Shown here: piece after piece, positions 2,548-61,581 of the stretch
Position numbering within the stretch: position 1 is the stretch's first letter
Layout: each line of letters begins with the position of its first letter
NCBI RefSeq assembly: GCF_963576615.1
Contig: NC_088711.1
Coordinates: 5,642,001-5,706,000, forward strand
Direction of reading: 5' to 3'
Origin: Watersipora subatra
Lineage: Eukaryota > Bryozoa > Gymnolaemata > Cheilostomatida > Watersiporidae
Length of the DNA: 64,000 bases
Translations under genes and position numbers: made by a program
The notes under the pieces: generated by a model
Seen by the model: the letters and a program-made list of their open reading frames with translations, nothing else
What the model was told of the DNA's origin: nothing
Databases searched by the model: none

Positions 2548-2549
2548 GT

Positions 2550-34779: not shown

Positions 34780-36059
34780 TCCTCATGACCATTGAATTTA
34801 AAATGGCGCTAGGCATATCATCAGTAGCACTTCCAGGAGATTCTCATCAACCATAAATGTTGAAAGCTGAGTGGTAATTGTTGGTTCTTCTCAAGACATT
34901 TCAGATGTTATGAGATAAAAATGAGTATTGATTTTTTTGGCGGTCATTTTAAAGGCCAGACATTGGTGTAGACTCATTTCAAGGTATTAAAGGTGGTGAG
35001 CAGCAAAAATCAGATGTAGCCTGTGTGGAAATCCGACTTGATCAGGTGGATCAAAAACAAATCACTCTTCAGAAGAGTGCTTTGATCTGGATAGTGAATG
35101 TGATTAATAGATGTGGAAGGTTCATATATACAGTAGTTGTAGATTGTTCCGGTGATGTGGGTGTCACAAGATTCAATTCAAAAGTGACTTGTTTGAACTT
35201 GGAACCTGTAGGTGTACCTTCTTCCAACTTCGTGGTGGTGTGATCGATCAGAAATGTTTTCTCTTTCTAATAGTGGCATGTTCTGAAAATGGACCGGTAG
35301 ACATTTGTGTTTTCGTAATATTTCCTGATGGGGAATACTCATATCTGGCAGCATCCTTGCTGTCTATTGTGGTTTATCATTCATAAATATGGAACGCTCA
35401 GAGATAGTTGCAGACTCCTCCTGAGATGTTGTGGGTGTTACACGATATAAATCAAAAATGGCTTGTTCCGAAGTAGTTACTTGAGGTGATATTTTTTCTA
35501 TTGTGGAAGCTTGATGAATGAAAAATGTGCCTCTAAATGGACTAGTGGTGTGATCTTCATACGGATCAGTAGATGTCTGGATTTGCATAATTATGTGTGA
35601 TTGAGAAAGCACACTAGGTCAAGCATCAGCCTCTTTATCTGATACGCGTACACTGTTTTCAGAGTTGGTTGTGGACCTCGAAGTTTTCGGATGTGCTTTG
35701 TTCAGTACAGTTAATCTTGGATTGTCAGACTCAAGAGAATTTGAAAAGGCCTTTGTAAAATCACAGGTTTTACTTGTTTCTTGGTTTAACAGATGGGTGG
35801 ATTCTTCATATACAATATTATCAGTTGTAGATGCTTACACTTTCAGATTTACTAGTAGTGGAACTTACAAACGTTGTGTCGGATGCTGTTTCTTTTGTGG
35901 GTTCTGTATGAGACATCGAATAATTGTACCCAGTGGCAGGTTTGACATCTACTGTTGCTCTGTGAAAGTCGTCACCAGATGATGTCGGAATATCAGTAGT
36001 TATGCTCGCATGCATTACAGCATTGTAGTATATCAACGCAGTGGCTCTGTTTGGAATCT
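34780..36059 (-). pseudogene. Cassette 4 Thr-rich exon, degenerate
   Basis: Starts at 36059 behind a TTTTGTAG acceptor with EIPNRATALIYYNAV, matching the start EITDIATVLMYYNLV of the cassette 2 long exon. The frame reaches a stop at about 35821. Thr/Ser-rich pieces continue in other frames (for example 35612-35364), so frameshifts have accumulated. The left limit is approximate and no donor was identified. Confidence 0.6.
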
Positions 36060-36100
36060 CTACAAAATAAGAAATTTAAATCTTCCATCAAATGAGCAAT

Positions 36101-36810
36101 CCAGAAAGTTCTTATCAAAGGCAGAAATTCTCACGGTTTCAATTTAAATGCTCTAGTCTATTATGGCCACACCTTCTATAGTCGATTACAACTGCACTTG
36201 GTGCAGTTTACCCCAACAAAACTCACCCTATGTGAAAGCAGTCATCAATGCTTTGGAAAAAGGTACAAGGCACTCACCTTGAATGCTCTTATCAAAGGCA
36301 GAAATTCTCATGGTTTCAATTTAAATGCTCTAGTCCATCATGGCCACACCTTCTATAGTCGATTACAACTGCACTTGGTGCAGTTTACCCCAACAAAACT
36401 CACCCTATGTGAAAGCAGTCATCAATGCTTTGGAAAAAGGTACAAGGCACTCACCTTGAATGCTCTTATCAAAGGCAGAAATTCTCACGGTTTCAATTTA
36501 AATGCTCTAGTCTATCATGGCCACACCTTCTATAGTCGATGACAGCTGCACTTGGTGCAGTTTACCCCAACAAAACTCACCCTATGTGAAAGCAGTCATC
36601 AATGCTTTGGAAAAAGGTACAAGGCACTCACCTTGAATGCTCTTATCAAAGGCAGAAATTCTCATGGTTTCAATTTAAATGCTCTAGTCTACCATGGCCA
36701 CACCTTCTATAGTTGATTACAACTGCACTTGGTGCAGTTTACCCCAACAAAACTCACCCTATGTGAAAGCAGTCATCAATGCTTTGGAGAAAGGTACAAG
36801 GCACTCACCT
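36101..36810. repeat. 177-bp tandem repeat covering a SEA exon donor
   Basis: About four copies of a 177-bp unit. Each includes the last 10 bases of the cassette 4 SEA exon plus its donor (minus strand ATTCAAG|GTGAGT), at 36276, 36453, 36630 and the real site at 36807. Confidence 0.9.
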
Positions 36811-36990
36811 TGAATGCTTATTGATCCTGGTATGATATCTTCAGAATTGTTGAGTAAATCAGTAGTTAGCACATTGGTGATGGCAATAAGGAACCCATTC
36901 ATCTGGCTAGTAGATTGAGTTGTAGTAGTTACATCGTTGACAGCCGTTTTTTGAAATATCACCAGAAACAGAACTATCAGAGAGCCTTGA
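36809..36990 (-). CDS. Cassette 4 SEA exon A (intact but probably orphaned)
   Basis: 182 nt, acceptor TTACAG, donor GTGAGT. Encodes QGSLIVLFLVIFQKTA, then NGFLIAITNVLTTDL and EDIIPGSISIQ, the C-terminal half of a SEA domain. One codon longer than its paralogues. The preceding exon is frameshifted, so this copy is unlikely to be translated in its original context. Confidence 0.75.
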
Positions 36991-37403
36991 CTGTAATGGC
37001 AAATACATTAAATAGGTTGCCTTAAACAGAAGAATTGGAAGATGAAAATAATATAGTGATAGAGTATAAACTATAGTAATACAGGCGAAGAAACAGAGAA
37101 AGTGCGAAAGAGAGAGTTTACAAGTAGCGAATGTGGTGTGGCAAGTGATGAGTAAAAGCAGTATTTCTGCAAGGAGATCAGTGAATATGAGGTGGTAATC
37201 GCTGTAGGTCTAAACAAATGTCTTCTTCCAGACATGCTGCGAGTACTACATAGACACTTTCAATCAATCACTTTCAAGCGTGAGTTTTTAAACAAGACGG
37301 TTAATTGCTTTTTAAATCATTAATGGTATTCCTGTCTGCAGGAAGCACAAGCTTAGTGCACATCGACCCAATAAAGTTTGTGTAAAAGCTAATAAGGACT
37401 TAC

Positions 37404-37564
37404 TCGAAACCAGTTACAATGCGGCCAAGGTATTCATCCCGATATTAGACCCACTGTATGCATTATCAGCTGAAGGCACTTGCTTCCTATTGAAAGACTT
37501 GAGTTGGGATCATTAAGGTCAGATGTAAAGTTCTTGTTCAAAGTGACAGTTGTGTTATAAGCAG
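37404..37564 (-). pseudogene. Cassette 4 SEA exon B, frameshifted
   Basis: Homologous to the 172-nt exon B copies and starts AYNTTVTLNKNFTSDLNDPN, but is 161 nt long. Small deletions shift the frame and introduce stops (for example where paralogues read YQQEA), so the SEA core is destroyed. Splice sites are still present. Confidence 0.8.
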
Positions 37565-38256
37565 CTAAAATTAGAAATAACCTATCATCCATCAGTTCAA
37601 GGAGTAGAATGGCACTATCATTTATGCAAAATACGCCTCAGGCATATGACAAATGTCTGAATTTGCTTCTTCAGCAAAGAATTTCGATTCAATCTTCAAA
37701 AATCTTTAGCAAAAAAAGGCTATTAGAATCTCACAACAAAAACAATTAATTGGTGAGGGGAGTAATTTCTTTAAACTACATCATAAATAAGATAAAAAAA
37801 ATTTAACTGATCTATTGCATAAAGATTAAAAAACGCATAAAAGTCACACTTGATCATAATAGATACAAACTATTACATTCAAATTGTCCAAAGGTCTGTC
37901 ATATTACTAGTAAACCATAAACATCTGACAACATTTTCATCCAGACACTAATTCAAGCATGAAAATTGAAACCAGGAAATAACATGAATTCGGCATGAAA
38001 CAACTATTGACATTTCTTTCAGGATACAGTTTATATTAACTCGGTATCATTTTTGTATCAATGCTGGTGTAAATTGAACTATACCTCCAAATATGTTGAT
38101 TTCAGACTTATCAGCACGTAAGCTTCGCTTAATAAAAATTTATCACCATCAAAGCAAGAATCTAATTCTATCAAAATATTGGATCCTTTGATTATTGTAA
38201 ATCACAACTATTGATCACTGTTAGGTCAATTTTATAAAATCAAGATTAATGCTTAC

Positions 38257-40743
38257 TTATGACTGTGCTTGGTAAGCCCTCCGCTGTTAACTCATAGCTC
38301 CCCAATGAAGCAGCATAACTGACATCAATAGGTATGGAATTAGTCTCAGTCAATGAAGCATCTGTTGAGTTTTCAACTATCATGGAAGCAAGCGTGCTGC
38401 TAGGGCTACTAGTTCCTGGCTCAACACTGGTTTTAGCCTGTTCATTTGTATTAATGATTGGCTTGGCTTGATGTACAGTAGTTCAATCTTCAGTGCTACT
38501 ATCAGATGAGTTAATAAACCTTTCAGTTTAACTGAATTTATTATCGCTCAAAGATGTTTCTCTCTCTGAGATGGTGAAATGCTCTTGAAATAGATTAACA
38601 GATGTCTGATTTGTGAATTTGTTTTGAGAGGCTTGCAAATAAGAACCAAAATTGATCTTTGCAAAATTGGTTGGCATGAATGTAAGATTGCTCAAGTCTG
38701 TTACAGTAGTAGTATGATCATCCACAGATGTGTTCCTCTTTGAAGTTGTGGTATTGTCCTGATATTGACCAGTAAATCTTTCAGTGTTAGTCGAAGTGAA
38801 TTCTTGTGCGAACTGACTAGACCTGCGTTCAGCCTTAACATCGATTGTACTTTCACTATCTATAGATATAGTAGGTACAGAGATAGACTCTTTTTGAAAA
38901 TGTTGTGAGAGAAGGATCGGGAATGACTTGTTCAAAAGTGACATGATCAGAGGTAGTTGTTGTATGTGTACTTCTCTCTAGCGTTGTTGAAGTGTAATGA
39001 ATTAGAGATGAATGTTTTTTCTTAAAAAGTGATGTCATCCATAATTGAACTAGTAGATGTCTGAGCAATGAGTTTTTTGGCGTATGTCTGATGTTTTAGG
39101 ATTATTGTAATAAATAACTTGCTCAGTTGTAGTGGCTGTAGGATTAATTTTTAATTAATTTCTGTTGATTATGCGGTAGTGTGATCAATTGGAGATGTTA
39201 CCCTCCCTCCATTAATAGAATGAACAGTAGATATCTGCCTTTCAGTTGAAGTGGTTGTTTAGGAATTTACACTAAGTCTGGCATCAGCATCAATGTCTGA
39301 TGTGGTTTCACCATTTACAGATGTGGAAGGTTGCAAGATAGTTGTGGCCTTTTCTTGAAGTGGAAGATATGTTTTAGGATAGAAATCAGAAGTGAATTGG
39401 ACAGATGGAGGAGTTGTAGGTCTGGTTGTCCTTGACTCTGTTATAGTATAATCTATAGAAGATGTGTCCCATCTTGAAGTTGTGGCATAACTAACAGATG
39501 TCCAAATTTCAGTACGAGTGGTTGATTGAGAAGCTATACTAGATCTGAAACCAACATCACCGTCTGTTAGGGTTTGATCCGTTGTCAATGCGGAAGGCTC
39601 TGAGATGGTAGTATGATCTTGAATCGGATCAGCAGATGTCCAAGTGGTGAGCTCTTGTTGACGCATCTCTGATGTTTCAGAATTAATATTAGAAACAACT
39701 TGTTCAGTTGTAGTTGCTGTAGGACTAATTTCTCCTGATTTTGTCGTTATGTGATTGATTTGAGATGTTACCCTCCCTCGAATAATGGTAGAAACAGTAG
39801 AAAAGCTCATTTCGGTGTAACTGATTGTTTGGGAATTCACACTAGATCTGCCATCAGCATCAATGTCTGTTGTGGTTTCTAAATTTACAAATGTAGAAGG
39901 TTCTAAAATAGTTGTCGCTTCTTGTCGTGATTCCGATGTTTCAGGATAAAAATCAGAAGTGAGTTGGACAAACAGAGGAGTTGTAAGTCTGGTTTTTAAT
40001 ACCTCTGTAGTAGTGCGATGCCGTAGAGATGTGTCCCATTTTGAAGTTGTGGCATGAATAGCAGATCTTTGAATTTCAGTAGGAATGGATGATTGAGAAT
40101 TCATTCTAGATCTATAATTAGCATCATTGTCTCTTGTGATTGCATCATTTATACTTGAGGTAGTTTCAGGATTTGGTTTAGAACCATCTCGAGCTGTTTT
40201 TGATGTTATGAGATGAGGTTTAGAAACAGTAAATGAGTCATTTGAGGTTCCTAGGTGTACTTTTTCCAGAGTCTGTGGTGGTGTGACGAATCAGGGATGT
40301 GTCCATCTCTGAAATTGCAGTATAATTCTGAACTAGATCAGTTAGTGTGCTTTTTTCTGATTCAATACCTGTGTGATTAGTCAGAGATAAGTCTTTCTCC
40401 GGAGCAGTAGTAAGCTCTCGAAATGGATTGGAGGATGTCTGAACTGTGAACGCTTCTTGAGATGTTTTTGACCTTGGAAGATAAGCATCAGAAGTAAAAT
40501 GTTGAAAATCAGTTTCTCTATGTGTAACTTTTTCAGGTTTCGTGATAGTTTGATTAATAATAGGCTTGTCTCATTCTGCAACTGTGGTATGCTCTTGAAC
40601 TGTTGCTTCAACACTCTTAGATGCTTCGTTAATGGTCGAAGACGCGTGGATATGTTGAGCAGTTGATGTTGAGACTTCAGTAGTTGAACTCACACCCATT
40701 GCTAAGTTGTAGTACATTGACACAGTGGCTATATCTGTGATCT
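38257..40743 (-). pseudogene. Cassette 3 Thr-rich exon, truncated or decayed
   Basis: Starts at 40743 after TTTTGTAG with EITDIATVSMYYNLAMGV, runs 56 codons and meets an in-frame TGA at 40573-40571. Reading through, the same frame continues to a second TGA near 40225, then the coding frame shifts. A long Thr-rich stretch is open at 40104-39259 with an internal repeat of about 86 residues (TTSRWDTS, TTPPSVQFTSDFYP). The end (38257) still encodes a tail like that of cassettes 1 and 2 (EPGTSSPSST, SLTETNSIP) and keeps its donor. It could serve as the new terminal exon of the gene, or be a pseudo-exon. Confidence 0.7.
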
Positions 40744-42305
40744 CTACAAAATGGAAAATAACTGGTGAAGTTCGATCTTTCATCAAATGAACAATCTAGA
40801 AAGTGTATATGTAGGTAGTACTTCTAGTTATTCCGGTCTTTAATATAAATAGTTTGTGACCCAGTTGAAATATTGGATTTCAGAAAGTCCTCCAATTAAA
40901 ATCAAAGGGGAAGGAATCCTCTGTTCTAAGATCTCTAGTAATTTAGGGATTCATGACTTTGAGCAAACACAACTCCAAAACGAAGACTGTGCAGAGAGAA
41001 CTGAAAGCATTAATTTTTCTCATGGTTTAACAGCTTATAGATTTTTCGTAGGTATTTTTCTATTGTGAGATCATATCTAAAAATGTCAGTGAAATGTATG
41101 AAAGAACTTCCAAATATCATAGCTTCGTATTTGCAAAAGTGTTGGTATTTCAATCTGAAAGCCTAGCTTGTTTAAAATTGCTTCAAGCCCCTGTAAGGCA
41201 AAGAATCCGCAACTACGAACTCTCTTTTTGAAAATGACTGCCCATCTATGGTGCCATAACAAACCCTTTTTGATATTATATTTAAGATTTTATTTCAGCT
41301 TTGTCTTTCCTGAATCTCGGCAGTTTTCAGGTAGAATATGATGAGATTTTTTAGCGGTGCAATGCTTTTGCTCCAAAATCAAATTTCACCCAAAGTATTT
41401 ATTAGACTAAAAGCACATAATATCCAGCAGAACACAGCTTGTTCCATGGTGTAATAATTTGTTTGCAGTCTTGTTTAAAGTGTCTCTAATGTTTTATCAT
41501 CTAGCTATTTAAAATAGACAGTTTATAGCTTCTTTGGCTATCAATTGCTGCGGTTGTGTCAATAAAGAGAATGTTAACAGTAAATAATTTCAGCAGTTTA
41601 AGAATTGTTAGCTCTAACATCAGAACTATCCACATGTATTACCTGTTGTAAGTAAAACGGGTAAAACAATCGCCACACACGGAGAAATCCAACAAAGATG
41701 AAACATAAAAGACACTGAGGTAAAGAAAGAGCAAAAAGGTCCAGTCATTAGTTAAATAATGAGATAATCAACAATATTAATAGTGGACACCTAGTTACCT
41801 GGTTAAAATAACTCAGACTAACAGATGTTGGCAAAGCTGAAGATAAAGATGGAGGATTGACAATTCTTTTGCATTATAATAGCTATGGCAAACTTTCCTT
41901 CAAACATTACTACTCAAAACTAATTGCTCAATGTCACAGTGGCGTATAGATCACACCTTTACCCCGCAAATTACAACTTGCGCAAGCAAAATGTAGCAAG
42001 AGTGTGCGTCTACATACAAAGTGCTAAGGCATTGGATTGGCTATATTTAAAAAAAGTTGGCAAAATTGTCTGTATTATGAGTTATGCCATTTGTATATGC
42101 AATACAACACAGCAGTCATTGATGCATATATTGAAAACAGGTATGCATAGATTTGTCTTGAATATAGCTAATTCGAAAGACTACAGCAAAACCCTACAGA
42201 ATATATTCCTAGAATGTAAGTTCCTTTTATCCATGGATAGACAGGAGTTTTCGAACTGCAGTCTGGATTATCAAATTATTTTTTCAATGCATCTCCTCTA
42301 AATTA

Positions 42306-42620: not shown

Positions 42621-42682
42621 CACCTTCTACTCTTCAACATCGCAATAATGGAATGCTATAAAAAAACCCACAAGGCACTCAC

Positions 42683-42861
42683 CTTCAATGTCTATGGACC
42701 CTGATATGATGTCCTCAACATTGTTGGGTAAATCTGTTGTTAACACATTAGCGATGGCAACAAGGAACCGATTCATTTGGCTAGTAGATTGAGTTGTAGT
42801 TCTCACAGTTTGAGCAGTCTGTTCAAATATGACCACAAACAGAACTACCACAGAGCCCTCG
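42683..42861 (-). CDS. Cassette 3 SEA exon A
   Basis: 179 nt. Encodes EGSVVVLFVVIFEQTAQ, then TTDLPNNVEDIISGSIDIE. Contains the exact SEA autoproteolysis consensus GSVVV. Confidence 0.85.
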
Positions 42862-45800
42862 CTGCAAGTAAAAAAACGCAATCAATGTTATGATAAGAGC
42901 ACCTTCATTATTATAAACTATAATCATAGAAATAAGGTTACAAAGGTAGTATCAAATGTGAGCTAGTAATGATATATTAGTTGCACAATAGAAGAAGTGG
43001 ATGATGGAAACGTTAGAATGCTGGAGTGTGGAAGTATTGTAAGAACAGTGAGGTTATAGAGGTAACATAGTGAGTTTACAAACATAAATATTTTGACTCA
43101 ACCACAAGGCATATTTTATAAGTAAAGAATAACACAGTTTCTACAAAGAAGTACATGGAAGAAAAGCAGCATAATTTTCCTCTGAGTCATTACCCATACC
43201 TGCCATTGAGCCTTCATGTGTAATGTTTACTTCTGCATTATTTAGCATGATTTTAGATGCAGCTGGTTAGAACTTACTCAAAACCGGTTACAACGCAGCC
43301 AACATATTCATCTGCCAGATTAGAGCCACTGTATGCATTATCAACCGAGGCACAGAAGGCACTCGCTTCCTGTTGATAGACTTCTGAGGCGGGATCATTA
43401 ACGTCAGCTGTAAAGTTCTTGTTCAAAGTGACAGTCGCGTTATAGGCAGCTGAAATATAAAGATTTGGGAGTGTTAACTAATAAATATTGCTCCAGCTAT
43501 TAGATGTTACATACCAGTTACAGGGTTCACACCGAAACCTGCGACAGTTCCCTCTCTCATCTAAACAGGCTGACTGGGGTGAGAAAGCAGAGTATCATCT
43601 TTAACGCAGTGCTGACATGAATTATAAAAAAGGTTGTATTTTAATAAGAAACTCTAAAGGATATTTCCATAGCCACCCTGAGAAAGGACTTTATCACGAT
43701 GTTAATACTTCAACCAGTAGCACCAATGACACTCAGAAGGTGAAAAAAATAAGTGAATAAGTTTAACCTAAAAGTACATAGATGAACAGTTTTAATTGTT
43801 AATAAAAGTAAGTTTAGAATAACACTTGTTGGCATATCAGGTGCTTTATGACCAAATATACTGATTTATTTTATTTACTGTCTGTTTACATAATAAATAT
43901 AGAAATAAAAGACGTCTTGTTTTTAGTAATAAATGTTTACTTTGCCTTATCCAGAATAACTTTTTTAATATTTCTATCTCTCTGTACATATAATTGCTTA
44001 AATACGTTACATATGTATATTTACGTATTAAACCTGTAGATTGTATGCTCAGAAATGGTTCAACTTGGCCTCACTAAACTTTTCTAACACTGGAAGAAAA
44101 CGTAATTTTTATAATTTGGTTATTAAATCTGAAATGTGTATTACCGATGATAGTCACTGTATATTTATACAGCTAGACCTGATACTCACTTATGACTGTT
44201 ATCGGTACTTCTGTTGTTGAGTCATAGTTCACCGAAGAAGATGCTGTGTAACCGACATTAGTAGGTCGAGATTTTGTCTCAGACGGTGAAACATCTGCTG
44301 CAGTCTGAGTCATACTGAAAGGGAATGAGCCGATTGGATTACTTGCGCCTGGTTTACCAGTGATTGTGAACTGTTCAGAAAAATCTGTTCTACTTCCATG
44401 TTTGGTCTTTGCAGTAGGGTCTGTGCTCCATACATTAGCGAATGTTGCGTCATACTCTTCATATTCTGTTGTTGACAATTTCACATCTGTTGTTAGTTTG
44501 TCAGGCAAGTCTGTGGTATATCCTGTTTCTGCTGTGCTCAACTCACTGATCATTGTTGTCACTTCATCAGAGAAAGTAGATAAATACTCTTCATGCCCTG
44601 TTGTTGAGGATTTCAAATCTGTTATTTGTTCTTCAGGCGAGCCTGTGGTAGACTCCATGTTATTCGTAGTTTGATACATCAGCTCTGTTGTTACTGGATT
44701 ATAAAATGTTGTGTCGTACTTTTCATATTTTGTGGTTGACAATTCCACATCTGTTGTTGGTTCTTCATGCAAATCTGTAGTATATGCCGTTTCAGCTGTG
44801 CTTACCTCACTGATCATTGTCTTCACTTCATTGGTGACAGTAGATAGAGACTCTTCATGCCCTGTTGTTGAGAATTTCACATCTGTTATTAGTTCTTCAG
44901 GCGAGCCTGTGGTGGAGCTCGCGTAATATGTAGTTTGGTTCATCAGCTCTATTGTCACTGGTATGGAAAATGTTGCGTCGTATTCTGTGGTTGACAATTT
45001 CCCATCTGTTGTTGGTTTTTCAGGCAAATCTGTGGTATGTCCTGTTTCTGCTGTGCTCAACTCACTGATCATTGTTGTCACTTCATCAGATAAAGTAGAT
45101 AAATAATCTTCATGCCCTGTTGTTGAGGATTTTAAATCTGTTATTTGTTCTTCAGGCGAGCCTGTAATGAAGCCCGCGTCATATGTAGTTGAGTCCATCA
45201 ACTCTGTTGTTACTAGATTATAAAATGTTGTGTCGTACTCGTCATATTTTGTGGTTGACAGTTCCACATCTGTTGTTGGTTCTTCAGGCAAATCTGTAGT
45301 ATATGCCGTTTCTGCTGTGCTTAGCTCACTGATCATTGTCATCACTTCATCAGAGACAGTAGATAGAGACTCTTCATGCCCTGTTGTTGAGAATTTCACA
45401 TCTGTTATTAGTTCTTCAGGCGAGCCTGTGGTGGAGCCTGCGTAATATGTAGTTTGATCCATCAGCTCTGTTGTCACTGGATTGGAAAATGTTGTTTTGT
45501 ATTCTGTGGTTGACAATTTCCCATCTGTTGTTGGTTTTGCAGGCAAATCTGTAGTATATGGCAGCCCTGCTGTGCTTAACTCACTGATCATTGTTGTCAC
45601 TTCATCAGAGACAGTAGATAGAGAATCTTCATGCTCTGTTGTTGAGGATTTCGCATCTGTTGTCTGTTCTTCGGAAACACCAGTAGTGTATTGGTCATCA
45701 CTTGACAATTCTACATCTGTTGTTGGTTCTTCAGGCAAACCTGTAGTATATCCCATAGCATCTGTGGTTAAATCGCTGATCATTGTTGTCACCTCCCCAG

Positions 45801-48800: not shown

Positions 48801-51800
48801 CGATGTAAATATGACCTTTAGAGCAGAAAGTATCTGACAGCCATTATCTGACAGTATTGACTGAATTAACTGTTCAAAGTATGAATCGTAAGTAATGCTG
48901 ACAGAGCTGACAGTGCTAAAGAAAACAATGTAGGACTGACAACCCTTTACTAAAACTGAAGATGAGGTAGACTACAACATGAATGTATATATGAGAGAGT
49001 GTAAGAACGAGTGAGTTCTTATACTCACTGACGTACTGGTACAGGTTGGTGGCTAACTAAAGCTGCATGTATCATGTGTACCAATTGTTAGGCCATTAAA
49101 AAAACTGCAGTCAAAAGATACAGCAGGAATAAAAAGTCATTCATGAGGCGATGCAGCAGAAACTTCTGCCTGCTGCGACAGTGCCATAGCGGAAACAACG
49201 TGGCAAATAAACTTTAGGGCTGCTAGGATTGTTCAGGATGGCCAATGACTACAGGAAGTCCTTAGAACTCTTGCTGCATAAAACACCAGCAGCGATCTTG
49301 CATCACCGCGCTTGACTGTAAATATTTTTCAGTAGCTATATTTTTTGTAGCTTTGCTAGTTTATCACCTTGATTCCTGATTAAGTCTGTTACGGTAACAC
49401 CTAACCTAACCTTCTATGGCAATGACACCTGCTCTAATCTGTCACAGCTGCACTCTCTGCAGTCTGTCACAGTTTTACTGATTCTAGTTTATTATAGCCT
49501 TCTCATTGCAGTGCCCCAGTAAAAAGCCTCCTAGGGGACATCGCAATGACACGCATGGAAAAACAGAAAACATATTCACCTTGAATGTGTATGGATCCTG
49601 GTAGGATGTCCTCAACATTGTTGGGTAAATCAGTTGTTAACACATTAGTGATGGCAGCAAGGAGCCCATTCATTTGGCCAGTAGATTGAGTTGTAGTTGT
49701 CACAGTTTGAGCAGTCTGTTCAAATACCACCACAAACAAAACTATCACAGAGCCTTCTCTGCAAAGAAGAAAATTTTTAAGTTACAGGTTTAAGTTATAA
49801 TCAGCCTTCTATTGCAGTCACAGCAAGTCTCATGTCATACAGATAGAAAAACAGCTATGAGTTTACAAAGCTTATAGCAAGTGTGAGAAAGAAATGGAAG
49901 AGTGGTGAGTCAGAGGTAATAGTGACAGAGAATGAAGGTAATATAAATGGAAGAGTGGTGAGTCAGAGGTACTAGTGATAGAGAATGAAGGTAATATAAA
50001 TGGAAGAGTGGTGAGTCAGAGGTAATAGTGACAGAGAATGAAAGTAATATAAATGGAAGAGTGGTGAGTCAGAGGTAATAGTGATAGAGAATGAAGGTAA
50101 TATAAATGGAAGAGTGGTGAGTCAGAGGTAATAGTGACAGAGAATGAAGGTAATATAAATGGAAGAGTGGTGAGTCAGAGGTAATAGTGATAGAGAATGA
50201 AGGTAATATAAATGGAAGAGTGGTGAGTCAGAGGTAATAGTGACAGAGAATGAAGGTAATATAAATGGAAGAGTGGTGAGTCAGAGGTAATAGTGATAGA
50301 GAATGAAGGTAATATAAATGGAAGAGTGGTGAGTCAGAGGTAATAGTGACAGAGAATGAAAGTAATATAAATGGAAGAGTGGTGAGTCAGAGGTAATAGT
50401 GACAGAGAATGAAGGTAATATAAATGGAAGAGTGGTGAGTCAGAGGTAATAGTGATAGAGAATGAAAGTAATATAAATGGAAGAGTGGTGAGTCAGAGGT
50501 AATAGTGATAGAGAATGAAGGTAATATAAATGGAAGAGTGGTGAGTCAGAGGTAATAGTGATAGAGAATGAAGGTAATATAAATGGAAGAGTGGTGAGTC
50601 AGAGGTACTAGTGACAGAGAATGAAAGTAATATAAATGGAAGAGTGGTGAGTCAGAGGTAATAGTGATAGAGAATGAAGGTAATATAAATGGAAGAGTGG
50701 TGAGTCAGAGGTAATAGTGACAGAGAATGAAGGTAATATAAATGGAAGAGTGGTGAGTCAGAGGTAATAGTGACAGAGAATGAAGGTAATATAAATGGAA
50801 GAGTGGTGAGTCAGAGGTAATAGTGATAGAGAATGAAGGTAATATAAATGGAAGAGTGGTGAGTCAGAGGTAATAGTGACAGAGAATGAAGGTAATATAA
50901 ATGGAAGAGTGGTGAGTCAGAGGTAATAGTGACAGAGAATGAAGGTAATATAAATGGAAGAGTGGTGAGTCAGAGGTAATAGTGATAGAGAATGAAGGTA
51001 ATATAAATGGAAGAGTGGTGAGTCAGAGGTAATAGTGATAGAGAATGAAGGTAATATAAATGGAAGAGTGGTGAGTCAGAGGTAATAGTGACAGAGAATG
51101 AAGGTAATATAAATGGAAGAGTGGTGAGTCAGAGGTAATAGTGATAGAGAATGAAGGTAATGTAAATGGAAGAGTGGTGAGTCAGAGGTAATAGTGACAG
51201 AGAATGAAGGTAATATAAATGGAAGAGTGGTGAGTCAGAGGTAATAGTGATAGAGAATGCAGGTAATATAAATGGAAGAGTGGTGAGTCAGAGGTAGAGA
51301 GAGTTAGTATGTTTAGAGAGTATGAGAAGTGAATAATGAACATTGTCAAGTGCTTGAGTAGAGATATAGCATGATACAAAGCTAGATCAGTATGTATGAA
51401 GACACAAACATGCTGCATGTTCAGCACGTAAAGAATCACACAATTTTTATCCGAGATCAAACGGTAGCGAAGCAGGAGAATTCTATACTATGTCATTGTT
51501 CTCTTCAAGATGGCAATAAAAGTTCTCAATGGTTGAAACAAATATCTCTTTTTTACTGAAAGACTCGCAAGCTTTATATACAGGAACTCATTAGGATCTA
51601 GCAAGGAAGAGACAGAATATTTCTATGATGATTCATGCCTCCATTCTATGTTTTTATATACCATCATCTATGAGCTTACAAAAAGGAGGTTACATGGTTA
51701 CACATGCATAATTTAGCCATAGTTTACGATGCAACGGGTTAAAACTTACTCGAAACCAGTTACAATGCAGCCAACATATTCATCAGCCAGATTAGAGCCA

Positions 51801-54800
51801 CCGTATGCATTATCAACTGAGGCGCAGAAAGCTCTCGCTTCCTGTTGATAGACTTCCGAGTTGGGATCATTAAGGTCAGCTGTAAAGTTCTTGTTCAAAG
51901 TGACAGTCGCGTTATAGGCAGCTGAAATATAAAGATTTGGGAGTGTTAACTAATAAATATTGCTCCAACTATTAGATGTCACATACCAATCAACTAGTCG
52001 AAAAATTCATACCAGAATGAGCGATACGTTATCAATCTAAACAGATTTAGTGGGTGAGAAAGCAGCGGGATATCATCTGTAACGCAAACCTGTATCTGAC
52101 AATTTACACAATTTTGGTTTTCAATCTTTATTGAGAGGAATTGTAGCGGAGATTATACTTTAATTATAAACTCTAATATCGCTTATATTATAAAACGGAA
52201 ATACTTCTGACAAAAAAGAATATTATCAGGATGCTACTATTGGTGATTAACCAGAATCACCAATGACACCCAGATGTTTGAAAACAAGCAACCTAGTTTA
52301 ACCTAGATGTAGATGGACAGCTTTAATCAATATGAATCTAAGTTTGTCATTTGTCATTCCGGTTATAGCAATAATGTTTTAGGAATGAAAAACACTCTCG
52401 TACTGGATTTCAACTCGCAAAGATTGCAACCACAAGTTTGTAAGCGCTAACACTAACAAGCGCACCTAACCACAAGGCTAAACCATTCTTACCATTCCTA
52501 TCGCTCTTACCATATACTGTATATCCATTTCGCAATTGCACATTTTAAATGTGCCCTTTTTATTATTAATTAATATTCCCATTTGTGTTTGCTAATTTTT
52601 TGACAATCTATAAAAACTCATTGTTTATTATTACCTGTTTTTTTTATTTGTACTTTTCAAATGTGTCGTTTCAATTTTAAATAAGCCACTTCAATCATAT
52701 TTCTTGTTTCGGTATATTGGTGAAAGCAAATGCTTTACACGTGGACAATTGTATTATCTGGATTAGGAATTGCATCTACATTCTCTCTCCTTTTAATTGG
52801 ACAAAGTATCAGACAAAGACAGTCCGATATTTAATGTTTACGTTTGTACCAGTGCCAATTGAAAGGTACCAGAATCGTCCATCAAAACTTTGAACACAAC
52901 GAGCTTTTGCAGTAAAAGTAACCTTTTTATACACACAATTCCATGTATGAATTGTTTATTTTTTTCTTTTGGTGTAGGTCTACTTGAACTGCCCAAAAAC
53001 ACTTGTCTCATGATACGAAGCGCAAAAGTTAAAATGGTAAATGTTGCATATGTTGAACAAAAGTAAGTTTTCTGTGCAAAGACTTTGTTTTTACTTTTGT
53101 TAAGACTTTTACTTAAGACTTTTGTTTTTTATTACCCGGGCAATGCCAAGCATTCATCTACTTCTTTATAAAGTTAGTAGGTAACATAAAGTATTACTTG
53201 TTAACATTGCTGCTACTATAGGACCACAGGCTAATGAACCAACCGATTGCCTCTCGAAAACCAATTTAAACAATAAAATTGCAGATGAAAACTTTTAACA
53301 GAAAATTTAATCCAAGTTTCCTTGGAGAAAAATTCACTTCGCATATTTTAGTTATTATTTATTTTTAACTCTGCACAAATACATTGTACATGCATATTTA
53401 TAACTACATATTAAAATATGCAGACTGTATGTTGAGCAATGATTGAACTCGACCTAATGAAACTATTCTAACGCTTGAAGCAAACATGACATGCTATCAA
53501 ATACTTTCATGGCTTGATTATTGGATCTGAAAGCTGCTGCATTACCGATGATAATTTTTATAAATTTACATAACCAGAACTGATACTCACTTATGACTGT
53601 TATCGGTACATCTGTTGTTGAGTCATAGTTCACCAAAGAAGATGCAGTGTAACCGACATTAGTAGGTCGAGAGTTTGTCTCAGTCAGCGAAACATCTTCT
53701 GCAGTCTGAGTCATACTGAAAGGGAATGAGCTGATTGGATTACTCGTACCTGGTTTACCAGTGCTTGTGAACTGTTCAGAAAAATCTGTGCTCATTATTC
53801 CTGTGGCTTCTTCAGAAGGCTCCTCACTCTGTACATAAGAGATTGTACTGTCATACTCTTCAAATTCTGTTGTTGACAACTCTACAAATGTTGTTTGCTC
53901 TTCAGACAAGCTTGTAGTATATCCTTCGTCATCACCTGTGGTTAAACCAATCGACACTGTTGTTACATCCACAGACACAGTAGTGTCATACTCATCATAT
54001 TCTGTTGTTGACAACTCTACAAATGTTGTTTGCTCCTCAGACAAGCTTGTAGTATATCCTTCATCGTCACCTGTGGTTAAACCAATCGACTCTGTTGTTA
54101 CTTCTTCATACATAGTAGTGTCATACTCATCATAATCTGTTGTTGACAACTCTACAAATGTTGTTTGTTCTTCAGACAAGTGTGTAGTATATCCTTCATC
54201 ATCACCTGTGGTTAAACCAATCGACTCTGTTGTCACTTCTTCAGATAAAGTAGTGTCATACTTATCATAATCTGTTGTTGACAACTCTACAAATGTTGTT
54301 TGTTCTTCAGACAAGTTTGTAGTATATCCTTCATCATCACCTGTGGTTAAACCAATCGACACTGTTGTTACATCTTCAGACAAGGTAGTGTCATACTCAT
54401 CATATTCTGTTGTTGACAACTCTACGAATGTTGTTTGTTCTTCAGACAAGCTTGTAGTATATCCTTCATCGTCACCTGTGGTTAAACCAATCGACTCTGT
54501 TGTTACATCTTCAGACATAGTAGTGTCATACTCATCATATTCTGTTGTTGACAACTCTACAAATGTTGTTTGCTCCTCAGACAAGCTTGTAGTATATCCT
54601 TCGTCATCACCTGTGGTTAAACCAATTGACTCTGTTGTTACTTCTTCAGACATAGTAGTGTCATACTCATCATATTCTGTTGTTGACAACTCTACAAATG
54701 TTGTTTGCTCCTCAGACAAGTTTGTAGTATATCCTTCATCGCCACCTGTGGTTAAACCAATCGACTCTGTAGTTACTTCTTCAGATAAAGTAGTGTCATA

Positions 54801-57800
54801 CTCATCATAATCTGTTGTTGACAACTCTACAAATGTTGTTTGTTCTTCAGACAACTGTGTAGTATATCCTTCATCATCACCTGTGGTTAAACCGATCGAC
54901 TCTGTTGTCACTTCTTCAGACAAGGTAGTTTCATACTCTTCATATTCTGTTGTTGACAACTCTACGAATGTTGTTTGTTCTTCAGACAAGCTTGTAGTAT
55001 ATCCTTCATCGTCACCTGTGGTTAAACCAATCGACTCTGTTGTTACATCTTCAGACATAGTAGTGTCATACTCATCATATTCTGTTGTTGACAACTCTAC
55101 AAATGTTGTTTGTTCTTCAGACAAGCTTGTAGTATATCCTTCATCATCACCTGTGGTTAAGCCAATCGACTCTGTTGTTACATCTTCAGACATAGTTGTG
55201 TTATACTCATCATATTCTGTTGTTGAAAACTCTACAAATGTTGTTTGCTCCTCAGACAAGTTTGTAGTATATCCTTCATCATCACCTGTGGTTAAACCAA
55301 TTGACTCTGCTGTTACTTCTTCAGACAAGGTAGTGTCATACTCATCATATTCTGTTGTTGACAACTCTACAATTGTTGTTTGTTCTTCAGACAAGCTTGT
55401 AGTATATCCTTCATCGTCACCTGTGGTTAAACCAATCGACTCTGTAGTTACTTCTTCAGATAATGTAGTGTCATACTCTTCATATTCTGTTGTTGACAAC
55501 TCTACAAATGTTGTTTGTTCTTCAGACAAGCTTGTAGTATATCCTTCATCATCACCTGTGGTTAAACCAATTGACTCTGTTGTTACTTCTTCAGACAAGG
55601 TAGTTTCATACTCATCATATTCTGTTGTTGACAACTCTACAAATGTTGTTTGCTTCTCAGACAAGCTTGTAGTATATCCTTCATCGCCACCTGTGGTTAA
55701 ACCAATCGACTCTGTAGTTACTTCTTCAGATAAAGTAGTGTCATACTCATCATAATCTGTTGTTGACAACTCTACAAATGTTGTTTGTTCTTCAGACAAC
55801 TGTGTAGTATATCCTTCATCATCACCTGTGGTTAAACCGATCGACTCTGTTGTCACTTCTTCAGACAAGGTAGTTTCATACTCTTCATATTCTGTTGTTG
55901 ACAACTCTTCGAATGTTGTTTGTTCTTCAGACAAGCTTGTAGTATATCCTTCATCGTCACCTGTGGTTAAACCAATCGACTCTGTTGTTACATCTTCAGA
56001 CATAGTAGTGTCATACTCATCATATTCTGTTGTTGACAACTCTACAAATGTTGTTTGTTCTTCAGACAAGTTTGTAGTATATCCTTCATCATCACCTGTG
56101 GTTAAACCAATCGACTCTGTTGTTACATCTTCAGACATAGTTGTGTTATACTCATCATATTCTGTTGTTGAAAACTCTACAAATGTTGTTTGCTCCTCAG
56201 ACAAGCTTGTAGTATATCCTTCATCATCACCTGTGGTTAAACCAATTGACTCTGCTGTTACTTCTTCAGACAAGGTAGTGTCATACTCATCATATTCTGT
56301 TGTTGACAACTCTACAATTGTTGTTTGTTTTTCAGACAAGCTTGTAGTATATCCTTCATCGTCACCTGTGGTTAAACCAATCGACTCTGTAGTTACTTCT
56401 TCAGATAATGTAGTGTCATACTCTTCATATTCTGTTGTTGACAACTCTACAAATGTTGTTTGTTCTTCAGACAAGCTTGTAGTATATCCTTCATCGTCAC
56501 CTGTGGTTAAACCAATCGACTCTGTTGTTACTTTTTCAGACAAGGTAGTTTCATACTCATCATATTCTGTTGTTGACAACTCTACAACTGTTGTTTGTTC
56601 TTCAGACAAGCTTGTAGTATATCCTTCGTCATCACCCGTGGTTAAACCAATTGACTCTGTTGTTACTTCTTCAGACAAGGTAGTTTCATACTCATCATAT
56701 TCTGTTGTTGACAACTCTACAAATGTTGTTTGTTCTTCAGACAAGCTTGTAGTATATCCTTCATCATCACCTGTGGTTAAACCAATCGACACTGTTGTTA
56801 CTTCTTCAGACAAGGTAGTTTCATACTCTTCATATTCTGTTGTTGACAACTCTACAAATGTTGTTTGCTCTTCAGACAAGCTTGTAGTATATCCTTCGTC
56901 ATCACCTGTGGTTAAACCAATCGACTCTGTAGTTACTTCTTCAGATAAAGTAGTGTCATACTCATCATAATCTGTTGTTGACAACTCTACAAATGTTGTT
57001 TGTTCTTCAGACAACTGTGTAGTATATCCTTCATCATCACCTGTGGTTAAACCGATCGACTCTGTTGTCACTTCTTCAGACAAGGTAGTTTCATACTCTT
57101 CATATTCTGTTGTTGACAACTCTACGAATGTTGTTTGTTCTTCAGACAAGCTTGTAGTATATCCTTCATCGTCACCTGTGGTTAAACCAATCGACTCTGT
57201 TGTTACATCTTCAGACATAGTAGTGTCATACTCATCATATTCTGTTGTTGACAACTCTACAAATGTTGTTTGTTCTTCAGACAAGCTTGTAGTATATCCT
57301 TCATCATCACTTGTGGTTAAACCAATCGACTCTGTTGTTACATCTTCAGACATAGTTGTGTTATACTCATCATATTCTGTTGTTGAAAACTCTACAAATG
57401 TTGTTTGCTCCTCAGACAAGTTTGTAGTATATCCTTCATCATCACCTGTGGTTAAACCAATTGACTCTGCTGTTACTTCTTCAGACAAGGTAGTGTCATA
57501 CTCATCATATTCTGTTGTTGACAACTCTACAATTGTTGTTTGTTCTTCAGACAAGCTTGTAGTATATCCTTCATCGTCACCTGTGGTTAAACCAATCGAC
57601 TCTGTAGTTACTTCTTCAGATAATGTAGTGTCATACTCTTCATATTCTGTTGTTGACAACTCTACAAATGTTGTTTGTTCTTCAGACAAGCTTGTAGTGT
57701 ATCCTTCATCGTCACCTGTGGTTAAACCAATCGACTCTGTTGTTACTTTTTCAGACAAGGTAGTTTCATACTCATCATATTCTGTTGTTGACAACTCTAC

Positions 57801-60800
57801 AAATGTTGTTTGCTCTTCAGACAAGCTTGTAGTATATCCTTCGTCATCACCTGTGGTTAAACCAATCGACACTGTTGTTACTTCTTCAGACAAGGTAGTT
57901 TCATACTCTTCATATTCTGTTGTTGACAACTCTACAAATGTTGTTTGTTCTTCAGACAAGCTTGTAGTATATCCTTCATCATCACCTGTGGTTAAACCAA
58001 TCGACACTGTTGTTACTTCTTCAGACAAGGTAGTTTCATACTCATCATATTCTGTTGTTGACAACTCTACAAATGTTGTTTGCTCTTCAGACAAGCTTGT
58101 AGTATATCCTTCGTCATCACCTGTGGTTAAACCAATCGACTCTGTAGTTACTTCTTCAGATAAAGTAGTGTCATACTCATCATAATCTGTTGTTGACAAC
58201 TCTACAAATGTTGTTTGTTCTTCAGACAGCTGTGTAGTATATCCTTCATCATCACCTGTGGTTAAACCAATCGACTCTGTTGTTACTTCTTCAGACAAGG
58301 TAGTTTCATACTCATCATTTTCTGTTGTTGACAACTCTACAACTGTTGTTTGTTCTTCAGACAAGCTTGTAGTATATCCTTCATCATCACCTGTGGTTAA
58401 ACCAATCGACAATGTTGTTACTTCTTCAGACAAGGTAGTTTCATACTCTTCATATTCTGTTGTTGACAACTCTACAAATGTTGTTTGCTCTTCAGACAAG
58501 CTTGTAGTATATCCTTCGTCATCACCTGTGGTTAAACCAATCGACACTGTTGTTACATCTTCAGACATAGTAGTGTCATACTCATCATATTCTGTTGTTG
58601 ACAACTCTACAATTGTTGTTTGTTCTTCAGACAAGCTTGTAGTATATCCTTCATCATCACCTGTGGTTAAACCAATTGACTCTGTTGTTACTTCTTCAGA
58701 CAATGTAGTTTCATACTCATCATATTCTGTTGTTGACAACTCTACAAATGTTGTTTGCTCTTCAGACAAGCTTGTAGTATATCCTTCATCATCACTTGTG
58801 GTTAAACCAATCGACTCTGTAGTTACTTCTTCAGATAAAGTAGTGTCATACTCATCATAATCTGTTGTTGACAACTCTACAAATGTTGTTTGTTTTTCAG
58901 ACAACTGTGTAGTATATCCTTCATCATCACCTGTGGTTAAACCAATCGTCTCTGTTGTCACTTCTTCAGATAAAGTAGTGTCATACTTATCATATTCTGT
59001 TGTTGACAACTCTACAAATGTTGTTTGTTCTTCAGACAAGCTTGTAGTATATCCTTCATCATCACCTGTGGTTAAATCAATCGACTCTGTTGTTACATCT
59101 TCAGACATAGTAGTGTCATACTCATCATATTCTGTTGTTGACAACTCTACAAATGATGTTTGCTCCTCAGACAAGCTTGTAGTATATCCTTCGTCATCAC
59201 CTGTGGTTAAACCAATTGACTCTGTTGTTACTTCTTCAGACATAGTAGTGTCATACTCATCATATTCTGTTGTTGAGAACTCTACAAATGTTGTTTGCTC
59301 CTCAGACAAGCTTGTAGTATATCCTTCATCGTCACCTGTGGTTAAACCAATCGACTCTGTAGTCACTTCTTCAGATAAAGTAGTGTCATACTCATCATAT
59401 TCTGTTGTTGACAACTCTACAATTGTTGTTTGTTCTTCAGACAAGCTTGTAGTATATCCTTCGTCATCACCTGTGGTTAAACCAATCGAAACTGTTGTTA
59501 CTTCTTCAGATAATGTAGTGTCATACTCATCATATTCTGTTGTTGACAATTCAACTTCTGTCGTCAGTTCTTTAGACACACTTGTTAAGTACCCTTCATT
59601 TGTAGTTAGATCATTCAATATTGTTGTTGCTTCTTCAGACAAGGTAGTTTCATACTCATCATTTTCTGTTGTTGACAATTGAACTTCTGTCGTTAGTTTT
59701 TCAGACAAATGTGTAGTATATCTTTCATCACCAGTGGTTAAATCATGAAACTCTGTTGTCACTTCAAATTCTGTTGTCTCTTCAGAAAATGTGGAGTAAT
59801 GATCCTCAAATTCTGTTGACGATAGTTTTGCATTTGTTGTCGGCACTTCAGGAATATCCGTGGTGTATCCTTTATGTTCTGTGGTGAGCTTATTCAGCCT
59901 TGTTGTGACACGTTCTTCAGATGTTGTACTCTGTATTTCCATATATGCGGTTGAACTTTCAGGTAGGCCTGTACTGTATGTCTCCTCGTCTGTGGTCAAA
60001 TTATTAAATTCTGATGTCATTTCATGAGGAGTTGTGACATAATTCGTGAACAGCGTCGTTGAAGATCTCGGAAGAGTTGGTGATTCAGCTGAAGTTTCAG
60101 TGCTACGCAGTTCAAGCTCTGTTGTCTTATCATTTAGCTCTGAAGTCACTCCAATAGAACTTGTGACAAGCTTTTGAGTAGTTGTTTGAGAGTATTCAAC
60201 CTCTATCGTTGAATCATCAGAAACGCTAGGATTGGCTGGTTCGGCTTCTGTGGTGTAATTTGCTAATATAGTACTGGACTGTTCATCAGGACTACTGTAG
60301 GCTGATACATCTTTTGTTGTAGGGGCCAAATCTTCTGTTGTAGATAACTTAGAAAAAAGAATATCTTCTGTAGATGTCATGCGTCTTTGTGTTGAGCTAT
60401 AGACACTTGCCTTAGTGCTTCCAGAAGTAGTTGTATAGCCTGTGATAGTAATATCAAACTTTGTATTTATACTACCAGCATCTGTGGTAATCATACTATT
60501 AGTTTTGTTAGTTAATAAATCAGTCATGGTAGTGGTATGCTCCACAGCCATGGTTGACTGATCTAATGTAGAGGTGTGAATCTGTGCTGTAGTATTTGGG
60601 TCAGTTGCTGATGTTGTTAATCTTGTTGTTGAGGATGTGTTGGTAGCTGTTAATGTTGTTGATGTCGTTGTAGTTGTAGTTGAGTCATCCTGAGTTATTA
60701 TAGTGTGATACTGCTGAATTATCTCATTATCAACTATCACTACAAATACAACAACATTAGAGTTCAATGACGTTTTGTAACAATCATAAATATTTTGTGG

Positions 60801-61581
60801 TTAGATCAATAAAAGAATGATTTGTTTTTTACAATAAGCAAATAAAAGGAAATAATAATGTTACACACTGTCAACAGCAACAACTTTGTAAAGAGTTCTG
60901 CAGTTTTTTATTTAAACTAATTTGCATCAAAAGTACCTCTTTGTGCAAATGTATGTCAATTTCATCATTAAGACTACATACAATAATGTACTTACCTCCC
61001 ACATCTATTGTATTAACAATAACATTGTTCATATTGTTTTCTAAGCCCACGACCAAAATCACTGTGATGTCTTGTAGATTTGTACTCATCTGAGTGTCAT
61101 TTTGAGCTGGATCAGTAGCAGCGGGTAGTTGAAAGACAATGACAAAAAAGACTATCACAGAACCATTCCTAAAAGATACAGGCTAGAATTAGTAATAAAC
61201 CAGCATATGAATGAAGAGCCTAATTCGAAGAACAGATCATCTTACTTGGAGTTGAGTTAAGTGCTTTAATTATTATGGTTTAGCTAGTCCAGTTATGCTA
61301 CGCATACCTTCTCATCCTTGCTTTACCTCAAACAATGCACACATTTCCTATTTAAAAAAATAAATATAGTACACTTACACCTGTAAGTAAAATAGCCACA
61401 ATGACTTACTCAAAGCCAGTCACAGTACAGCCAACATATTCATCTGAGAGATTTGAATTTTGGTAAATTTCATCAATGGAAGAGATAAAATTTGATGCTT
61501 GTGCCTGGTAAGCAGCAGATGTAGGGTCTAGCAGGTCAACCGTGAAAGTGGTATTCAGAGAAACGCTGCCATTATACCCCG
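42683..61581 (-). CDS. Giant SEA-domain Thr-rich mucin-like protein (partial)
   Basis: Eight intact exons, transcribed leftwards: 61581-61410, 61168-60996, 60739-53591, 51921-51750, 49758-49580, 47573-44190, 43449-43278, 42861-42683. They form cassettes of exon B + exon A (a SEA domain split at the GFE|GSV region) and exon C (long Thr-rich repeat domain). Every B ends two bases into a codon, A ends one base in, and C ends one base in, so all joins are in phase. Together they encode about 3860 residues, plus about 56 more if the truncated cassette 3 long exon follows. SEA domains with Thr-rich repeats are typical of mucins and other O-glycosylated extracellular proteins; an extracellular role is inferred. 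No signal peptide or membrane segment was found, so the 5' end is missing and the 3' end uncertain. Several separate genes is the alternative. Confidence 0.75.
43278..43449 (-). CDS. Cassette 3 SEA exon B
   Basis: 172 nt. AYNATVTLNKNFTADVNDPA, then SVDNAY and DEYVGCVVTGFE, the N-terminal half of a SEA domain. Acceptor TTTCAG, donor GTAAGT. Confidence 0.85.
44190..47573 (-). CDS. Cassette 2 Thr-rich repeat exon
   Basis: 3384 nt, 1127 full codons, from EITDIATVLMYYNLV to VPITVI. The centre is built of roughly 44-residue acidic Thr-rich units, many arranged as 88-residue (264-bp) dimers such as TTDVELSTTEHQEFDTT and EEYTTGSPEEQITDAKSSTT. The last 70 residues (TDFSEQFTITGKPG, SETKSRPTNVGYTASS) are almost the same as in cassette 1. 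Donor GTGAGT. Confidence 0.85.
44430..47300 (-). repeat. 44-aa (132-bp) repeats, partly 264-bp dimers
   Basis: About 20 units. The dimeric period is clearest at 45900-46800, where near-identical copies recur every 264 bp. Confidence 0.85.
47637..47706. repeat. 12-bp minisatellite ATATAAGTATGC, about 6 copies
   Basis: Lies in the intron about 65 bp upstream of the cassette 2 long-exon acceptor. Open in frame with the exon, but the conserved acceptor lies between, so it is read as intronic. Confidence 0.9.
47707..49579. other. Intron of SEA/Thr-rich gene
   Basis: AT-rich non-coding sequence; a few degenerate CACCTGCTCTA-like copies near 49400-49480 resemble those at 42.3-42.6 kb. Confidence 0.5.
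49580..49758 (-). CDS. Cassette 2 SEA exon A
   Basis: 179 nt. EEGSVIVLFVVVFEQTAQ, then MNGLLAAITNVLTTDLPNN and LPGSIHIQ. Acceptor TTTGCAG, donor GTGAAT (weaker than the GTGAGT of paralogues). Confidence 0.85.
49896..51293. repeat. 53-bp minisatellite, about 26 copies
   Basis: Unit AAGGTAATATAAATGGAAGA, then GTGGTGAGTCAGAGGTAATA and GTGACAGAGAATG, in the intron inside the cassette 2 SEA domain. A C/T variant (GACAG or GATAG) alternates regularly over the first eight units. Confidence 0.95.
51750..51921 (-). CDS. Cassette 2 SEA exon B
   Basis: 172 nt. AYNATVTLNKNFTADLNDPN, then EVYQQEARAFCASVDNAYGG and DEYVGCIVTGFE. Fits the SEA pattern (F...L.dp.S..Y, then F...V...Y, then V..F..GSV). Confidence 0.87.
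51922..53590. other. Intron of SEA/Thr-rich gene
   Basis: AT-rich, no supported feature. Confidence 0.5.
53591..60739 (-). CDS. Cassette 1 Thr-rich repeat exon (7.1 kb)
   Basis: A single 7149-nt exon with 2382 full codons. Acceptor TTTGTAG and donor GTGAGT; phases match its neighbours. It begins VIVDNEIIQQYHTIITQDD, continues with about 390 residues of non-periodic Thr/Ser-rich sequence, then about 42 copies of a 45-residue unit (core STTEYDEYDTTLSEEVTTES, then LTTGDDEGYTTSLSEEQ). It ends with a conserved 70-residue tail (STDFSEQFTSTGKPGTSNP ... VPITVI). The composition is dominated by Thr, Glu, Asp, Ser and Tyr, with few prolines. Dense Thr suggests O-glycosylation; acidic-flanked Tyr suggests possible sulfation. 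Both are inferences. Confidence 0.88.
53860..59560 (-). repeat. 135-bp coding minisatellite, about 42 copies
   Basis: Marker bases recur every 135 bp from 53940 to 59475, exactly 41 periods. Multi-unit blocks of 7 and 9 units are themselves repeated (see findings). Confidence 0.96.
60996..61168 (-). CDS. Cassette 1 SEA exon A
   Basis: 173 nt. ENGSVIVFFVIVFQLPA, then LQDITVILVVGLENNMNN and VIVNTIDVG. More diverged than the other A exons and two codons shorter. Donor GTAAGT. Confidence 0.82.
61410..61581 (-). CDS. Cassette 1 SEA exon B
   Basis: 172 nt. GYNGSVSLNTTFTVDLLDPT, then ASNFISSIDEIYQNS and DEYVGCTVTGFE. Its start phase demands an upstream exon ending one base into a codon; none was found up to 64000. 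Confidence 0.83.

Follow-up and report, generated by a model that had tools for sequence, protein, structure and literature searches.

Positions 34,780 to 61,581 of a 64,000-nt stretch of Watersipora subatra DNA (the window; C4:5642001-5706000) carry, on the minus strand, four head-to-tail copies of a three-exon cassette. Each copy holds a SEA domain split over two exons (B and A) followed by a Thr-rich exon (C). The question raised by this locus was whether the cassettes are parts of one giant gene and how many of them still serve in it.

Exon boundaries are collected in Table 1. In copies 1–3, B measures 172 nt, A 173, 179 and 179 nt, and C 7,149, 3,384 and 2,487 nt; B runs from phase 1 to 2, A from 2 to 1 and C from 1 to 1, with GT-AG ends throughout. 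The B/A intron interrupts the second codon ahead of the Gly-Ser pair, and C1 and C2 end in GTGAGT donors in the phase required by the next B. The first-pass annotation had described four head-to-tail copies, common junction phases with cassettes entered and left in phase 1, and SEA domains split ahead of the GSV region; the layout and the split were recovered as described, and the phase logic held in copies 1–3. At the exact position of its lower limit, 34,780, there is no GT donor. Because both ends of a cassette are in phase 1, the frame survives the addition or loss of an entire unit. A SEA profile search on the joined B+A translation, also proposed in that annotation, was run on B+A with the start of C and matched PF01390 in copies 1–3 (SEA1, SEA2 and SEA3: E 4.8e-17, 2.9e-15 and 4.4e-14; 62.5, 56.7 and 52.9 bits against a gathering score of 26.4).

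Table 1. Exons of the cassette array and hand-placed upstream exons (window numbering, position 1 being the first letter of the window).
Feature	Position	Strand	Remarks
Exon B1	61410..61581	-	SEA1 N-terminal half, phase 1 to 2; in PF01390 match on joined B1+A1+start of C1
Exon A1	60996..61168	-	SEA1 C-terminal half, first residues N-GSVIV, phase 2 to 1
Exon C1	53591..60739	-	single Thr-rich exon, 7,149 nt, 45-aa repeats, without stop
Exon B2	51750..51921	-	SEA2 N-terminal half
Exon A2	49580..49758	-	SEA2 C-terminal half, first residues E-GSVIV
Exon C2	44190..47573	-	Thr-rich, 3,384 nt, 264/132-bp repeats, without stop
Exon B3	43278..43449	-	SEA3 N-terminal half
Exon A3	42683..42861	-	SEA3 C-terminal half, first residues E-GSVVV
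Exon C3, start	40571..40743	-	runs to in-frame TGA (40573-40571); likely protein end
Rest of C3 (whole C3 40743-38257)	38257..40570	-	decayed Thr-rich sequence; stops, frame changes; donor-like GTAAGC retained
Exon B4	37404..37564	-	decayed, 161 nt, out of frame
Exon A4	36809..36990	-	open, first residues Q-GSLIV; belongs to decayed cassette 4
C4	34780..36059	-	decayed Thr-rich remnant; lower end from the first-pass annotation, GT donor absent at 34780
E1 (MAELYN, 18 nt)	73482-73465	-	hand-placed, from sequence alone; modelled 5' end, beyond window
Cytoplasmic-tail exon 2	71983-71727	-	hand-placed, flank reading, beyond 64000
Cytoplasmic-tail exon 3	70620-70396	-	hand-placed, flank reading, beyond 64000
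Anchor exon	69861-69713	-	hand-placed; hydrophobic stretch, phase matches gene
SEA0 exon 1/3	67241-67123	-	hand-placed, flank reading, beyond 64000
SEA0 exon 2/3	65442-65372	-	hand-placed, flank reading, beyond 64000
SEA0 exon 3/3	65262-65105	-	hand-placed, flank reading, beyond 64000
Short Thr exon	64835-64773	-	hand-placed, flank reading, beyond 64000

Cassettes 1 and 2 are whole, as is SEA3; the earlier proposal that all four cassettes serve in the gene was not borne out. C3 meets a TGA after 57 codons, and beyond it the Thr-rich composition shifts through all three reading frames, with stops and three changes of frame. C3 as a whole exon was ruled out by 42 stops in the phase-1 frame together with this movement of the composition among frames. 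B4 is frameshifted (161 nt against 172), A4 is still open, and in exon C4 no frame is open through the second and third 150-nt bins. The lesions in C3, B4 and C4 are several and resemble ordinary decay, and by its reading frames the sequence past the C3 stop is decayed.

Upstream exons were placed by hand and counted on the window numbering; all eight lie past position 64,000. The resulting model of 17 exons has 16 of 16 junctions GT-AG and in phase and stays in a single frame as far as the C3 stop, 4,270 codons in all, although exon ends were picked by hand and the phase agreement is therefore partly selected for. A candidate for the membrane anchor came from scanning the locus and its flanks for hydrophobicity: it is the stretch right after SAKKEERRVTRP, one of 27 stretches above threshold between 26 and 80 kb. 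It lies upstream of B1, is preceded by KKEERR and is carried by an exon in the phase of the gene; a probable type II topology was read from its position and the basic residues ahead of it. The three cytoplasmic exons had no relative for comparison. Past the C3 stop, down to the 26-kb limit of the scan, two stretches lie barely above threshold, at 28.6–28.7 kb. With its modelled 5' end at 73,482 the gene leaves the window and does not fit between 34,780 and 61,581, contrary to the earlier proposal; the idea of one giant modular gene alternating SEA domains with long acidic Thr-rich domains gained support from the one frame over 17 modelled exons, anchor included. From the model we infer that adjacent cassettes are linked in one mRNA. 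The locus is probably a giant animal gene for a type II membrane mucin-like protein with a coat of SEA domains and acidic Thr-rich segments, ending at the C3 stop and grown by tandem addition of cassettes.

The first 520 residues of the model (SEA0 and SEA1) gave two SEA stretches in Pfam (92.8 bits, E 1.7e-26) and the last 250 residues (SEA3) gave one (51.7 bits, E 1e-13). SEA0 was found by flank reading and then by Pfam; B/A queries and profiles over 114 kb returned no SEA exons besides the four copies and missed SEA0, and other diverged SEA exons may escape in the same way.

The genome (784 Mb, 239 contigs) was searched for further copies, with the best candidates scored, so that family size is a lower bound. 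At least one further place outside the window was found, at C4:0.79 Mb on the same chromosome. In tblastn this sister gene was hit by B (E 5.8e-13) and, as a weak match, by A (E 0.023), and Pfam recognised SEA domains in it (2.8e-13 and 2.2e-14). On the minus strand it carries, in order, an anchor exon, a three-exon SEA0, a Thr-rich exon, B, A and a Thr-rich exon, and the start phases of its anchor, SEA0, B and A exons equal those of the window gene. The gene model draws its strongest support from this recurrence of the layout. The sister gene continues to a third SEA domain (E 2.6e-8), without Gly-Ser at the junction, and to LDLa exons, which form a cassette array of 75 units. One of its LDLa exons and one of its Cys-rich exons were searched by tblastn over 114 kb at the window locus and found nothing better than E 0.51; scans for LDLa and protease motifs in 124 kb around the window locus gave no convincing match. 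One small extra exon in the sister gene model is doubtful, and a Frizzled domain suspected by eye in its Cys-rich exon was rejected, having no Pfam match.

Two other accounts of the array were weighed against a single gene ending in C3. If the array were a tandem cluster in which every cassette is a small gene in its own right, each having a promoter and a start, the copies would be expected to look as they do in one respect, in that they differ in decay state like duplicated genes. The frames of C1 and C2 also stay open beyond the donors until they meet stops, after 42 and 5 codons respectively, and the C1-B2 intron holds two hydrophobic stretches barely above threshold (52481 and 52250), but the C2-B3 intron holds none above it. 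The B exons moreover start at an acceptor in phase 1, the GTGAGT donors of C1 and C2 fit the phase of the following B, and the single upstream anchor exon fits the frame, with the sister gene ordered alike; a cluster of separate genes is very unlikely. A functional gene might instead end after C2, with everything from B3 on in decay and SEA3 non-functional as well. A stop does lie 5 codons beyond the C2 donor, C3, B4 and C4 are indeed broken, and A4 of the dead cassette is open too, so that open B3 and A3 prove little; yet B3 and A3 are phase-matched with splice sites kept, and SEA3 still matches PF01390 strongly. The substitution ratios divide between these two endings, A2/A3 (dN 0.096, dS 0.124, dN/dS ~0.77) favouring the earlier and B2/B3 (dN/dS ~0.23) the later. 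An end after C2 is the less likely ending, with a smaller though appreciable chance of being right.

The case for selection on cassette 3 is weak. Over B+A, cassettes 2 and 3 gave dN 0.072, dS 0.164 and dN/dS ~0.44. A4, from a decayed cassette, gave similar values (A2/A4 0.167/0.342 = 0.49; A3/A4 0.181/0.448 = 0.40), and the ratio therefore fails to distinguish live copies from dead ones. Cassettes 2 and 3 are 92.3% identical in B and 90.4% in A. In 100-column bins B was 88–92% identical, and the C-B intron was mostly 49–78% identical or unaligned; ~95 bp of intron immediately upstream of B were also 88% identical. The SEA domain of cassette 1 is far more diverged (dS 1.6–2.4 for A, beyond computing for B). 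Over their final 51 codons, C1 and C2 (dN 0.064, dS 0.054, no constraint) resemble each other much more than the SEA domains of the two cassettes do, and cassettes thus did not evolve solely as whole units; the small difference between these ends points to sequence exchange between C exons. Within C1, 43 units compared with their consensus gave a nonsynonymous to synonymous count of 156:130 (1.2, against 2.83 expected without selection), with 3 single changes that create a stop codon set aside; the units share ancestry, so that the counts are not independent, and with each distinct change counted once the result was 56:29 (1.93).

C1 encodes 2,382 aa (Thr 26.1%, Ser 11.2%, acidic residues 25.5%, Tyr 6.0%, Pro 0.7%, net charge -578) and C2 1,127 aa (Thr 24.8%, Ser 10.4%, Pro 3.9%, net charge -185). 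The C1 repeat was found in 43.9 copies of 135 bp by TRF and as 43 units by our own matching. PTS domains are defined as Pro/Thr/Ser-rich regions (PMC1552070); here Thr plus Ser reach 37% in C1 and 35% in C2, beside Pro at 0.7% and 3.9%. Pfam matches of C1 to DsrC (E 4.3e-10) and of C2 to NAD_binding_11 (E 0.0012) were rejected as repeat artefacts in which no single stretch passes.

The same composition admits, in place of a glycosylated mucin, a structural or adhesive protein that is acidic and carries phosphorylation or tyrosine sulphation, a reading compatible with the gene model. The strong negative charge of C1 fits it, as do the very low proline, the SEE recurrent in the C1 repeat consensus and the tyrosines, of which 130 of 144 have at least three acidic residues within 5 positions. 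The Thr and Ser contents of C1 fit O-glycosylation, however, and cell-surface mucins typically combine a membrane anchor with SEA domains in series; a non-mucin protein is judged improbable. O-glycosylation of the Thr-rich stretches is likely from their Thr content, and sulphation or phosphorylation of these acidic stretches is possible.

As a mucin-like protein, the product would be held by a signal anchor near its N-terminus, with basic residues ahead of it placing the C-terminus outside the cell. On the extracellular side, SEA0 would be followed by a short Thr linker and SEA1; ~2,380 aa of acidic Thr-rich repeats would then lead to SEA2, and a further ~1,130 aa, similar in sequence, to SEA3, whose short tail ends at the stop in C3. 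Growth would have proceeded by tandem duplication of the three-exon unit, with phase 1 at both ends. O-glycosylated Thr-rich stretches would make a long, extended coat; each SEA domain is predicted to fold and may cleave itself at Gly-Ser, in which case the coat would consist of mucin segments linked in series through non-covalent SEA joints able to part under load.

All six SEA domains aligned from the two genes have Gly-Ser, and so do all four modelled SEA domains here (GSVVL in SEA0, GSVIV in SEA1 and SEA2, GSVVV in SEA3). The autoproteolysis consensus is given as G-S[V/I]VV (PMC10687090) and is matched exactly in SEA3 only, the other three being off by one conservative residue. Cleavage of MUC1 at GSVVV is described as leaving a non-covalent pair separable by mechanical force (PMC9564314). 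A bolder version of the mechanism, doubtful though conceivable, is a type II membrane mucin with a self-cleaving SEA domain between all mucin segments, forming a chain of non-covalently linked segments that can each break off separately, in place of a single polypeptide. The family would then have expanded in this lineage through amplification of multi-exon phase-1 cassettes, of the SEA-Thr kind at this locus and of the LDLa-Cys-rich kind in the sister gene.

Type II transmembrane serine proteases such as TMPRSS6 and HAT (TMPRSS11D) have an N-terminal cytoplasmic tail, a signal anchor and then a SEA domain, an N-terminal layout like that modelled here. A profile of the six SEA domains from both genes was compared with PDB chains alone and, with small differences between the scores, matched TMPRSS6 (3.3e-6), HAT (2e-5) and one more transmembrane protease (6.1e-5) best, then 1ivz (9.9e-5), a SEA domain of a mouse MUC16 homologue (PMC10829539), adhesion GPCR F1 (1.9e-4) and human MUC16 chains (0.13–0.34). 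Unlike these proteases, the gene has several SEA domains and long Thr-rich domains; a simple scan for trypsin-type His/Ser motifs ([ASTVLI]A[AG]HC, DSGG-, GDSGG-type) found none in 124 kb here or 70 kb at the sister gene.

Membrane mucins with a single SEA domain are type I and have Pro-rich repeats. As here, MUC1, MUC3, MUC12, MUC13 and MUC17 combine a repeat-rich candidate domain for O-glycosylation with a G-S[V/I]-type motif in SEA, but C1, with so little proline, differs from typical mucin PTS domains; one SEA domain is reported for each of the five (PMC10687090). MUC16 is the closest design and a described parallel, so that the idea of an arrangement without one is not supported. Both are giant membrane proteins with tandem SEA and Ser/Thr-rich units in one gene, in our case from the gene model alone, and the gene may work like MUC16. 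The MUC16 repeat is described as a SEA domain plus a P/S/T-rich linker over five exons (PMC3431878), present 19 times in the human protein (PMC10829539). That repeat has 156 aa, whereas the unit here has three exons and linkers of 1.1–2.4 thousand aa in one exon. Proline is scarce in the Thr-rich exons, unlike in MUC16. Gly-Ser in every modelled SEA domain is a further difference, a GSVVV-like motif having been confirmed by 2012 in one MUC16 SEA domain only, according to PMC3431878. MUC16 is type I (PMC4918949) with a C-terminal anchor, whereas the anchor candidate here is N-terminal, which would place the gene outside that family on topology. A search of the open-access literature for "type II transmembrane mucin" found no paper, an absence that is weak evidence. 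Possibly the MUC16 design was reached here separately, on a type II stem; giant coats of tandem SEA units would in that case seem to have more than one origin. Should all its SEA domains cleave, the protein would offer a natural means of testing serial SEA joints under force.

Phase-symmetric cassettes that were added in frame and others that have decayed stand next to each other at this locus. Spliced genes and one Ty3/Gypsy-like element are also present in the window.

The sister gene, a related locus at 0.79 Mb on the same chromosome (C4) with the exon order anchor, SEA0, Thr, B, A, Thr, continues into an array in which 75 units are repeated in tandem. The array period was exactly 980 bp, all 74 intervals being equal, and the units (40 distinct sequences) had a mean identity of 99.0% to their consensus. 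Each unit carries one LDLa exon and one Cys-rich exon (214 and 242 nt, sum divisible by three). Six units, in which one search string deviates, were left out of parsing; 68 of the 75 were fully parsed, and 68 of 69 parsed strings were open. The cassettes, about 75 with two exons each, are presumably spliced into a single mRNA of the sister gene; such a number within one gene would be striking.

Features located in the window and on C4 beyond it (L numbers, fetched stretches of C4).
Feature	Location	Strand	Remark
Sister-gene tandem array	C4, about 714.6-787.8 kb (L010, L012, L025-L027, L029-L031)	minus	outside window
Additional LDLa or Cys-rich exons	C4, 703-705 kb (L032)		outside window
Ty3/Gypsy-like element	window 2491-6678	+	domains in one open frame
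Twinkle-like open frame	window 26965-27300	+	Pfam match
177-bp tandem copies (n=4)	window 36110-36818		at A4 end
53-bp minisatellite, 26.5 copies	window 49892-51296		B2-A2 intron

Within the window, the single frame of the Ty3/Gypsy-like element (1,395 codons) encodes reverse transcriptase, RNase H, integrase and protease domains. The helicase-like frame matched Pfam AAA_25 (4.4e-7) and DnaB_C (0.025), resembles the Twinkle mitochondrial DNA helicase, and points towards the SEA gene, the modelled mucin-like gene. In the decayed fourth cassette of that gene, the 177-bp copies begin at the end of exon A4 and occupy part of the next intron, and the A4 donor string is present four times. The 53-bp minisatellite makes up most of the intron between the SEA2 halves (exons B2 and A2), and numerous further minisatellites occur elsewhere in the window.
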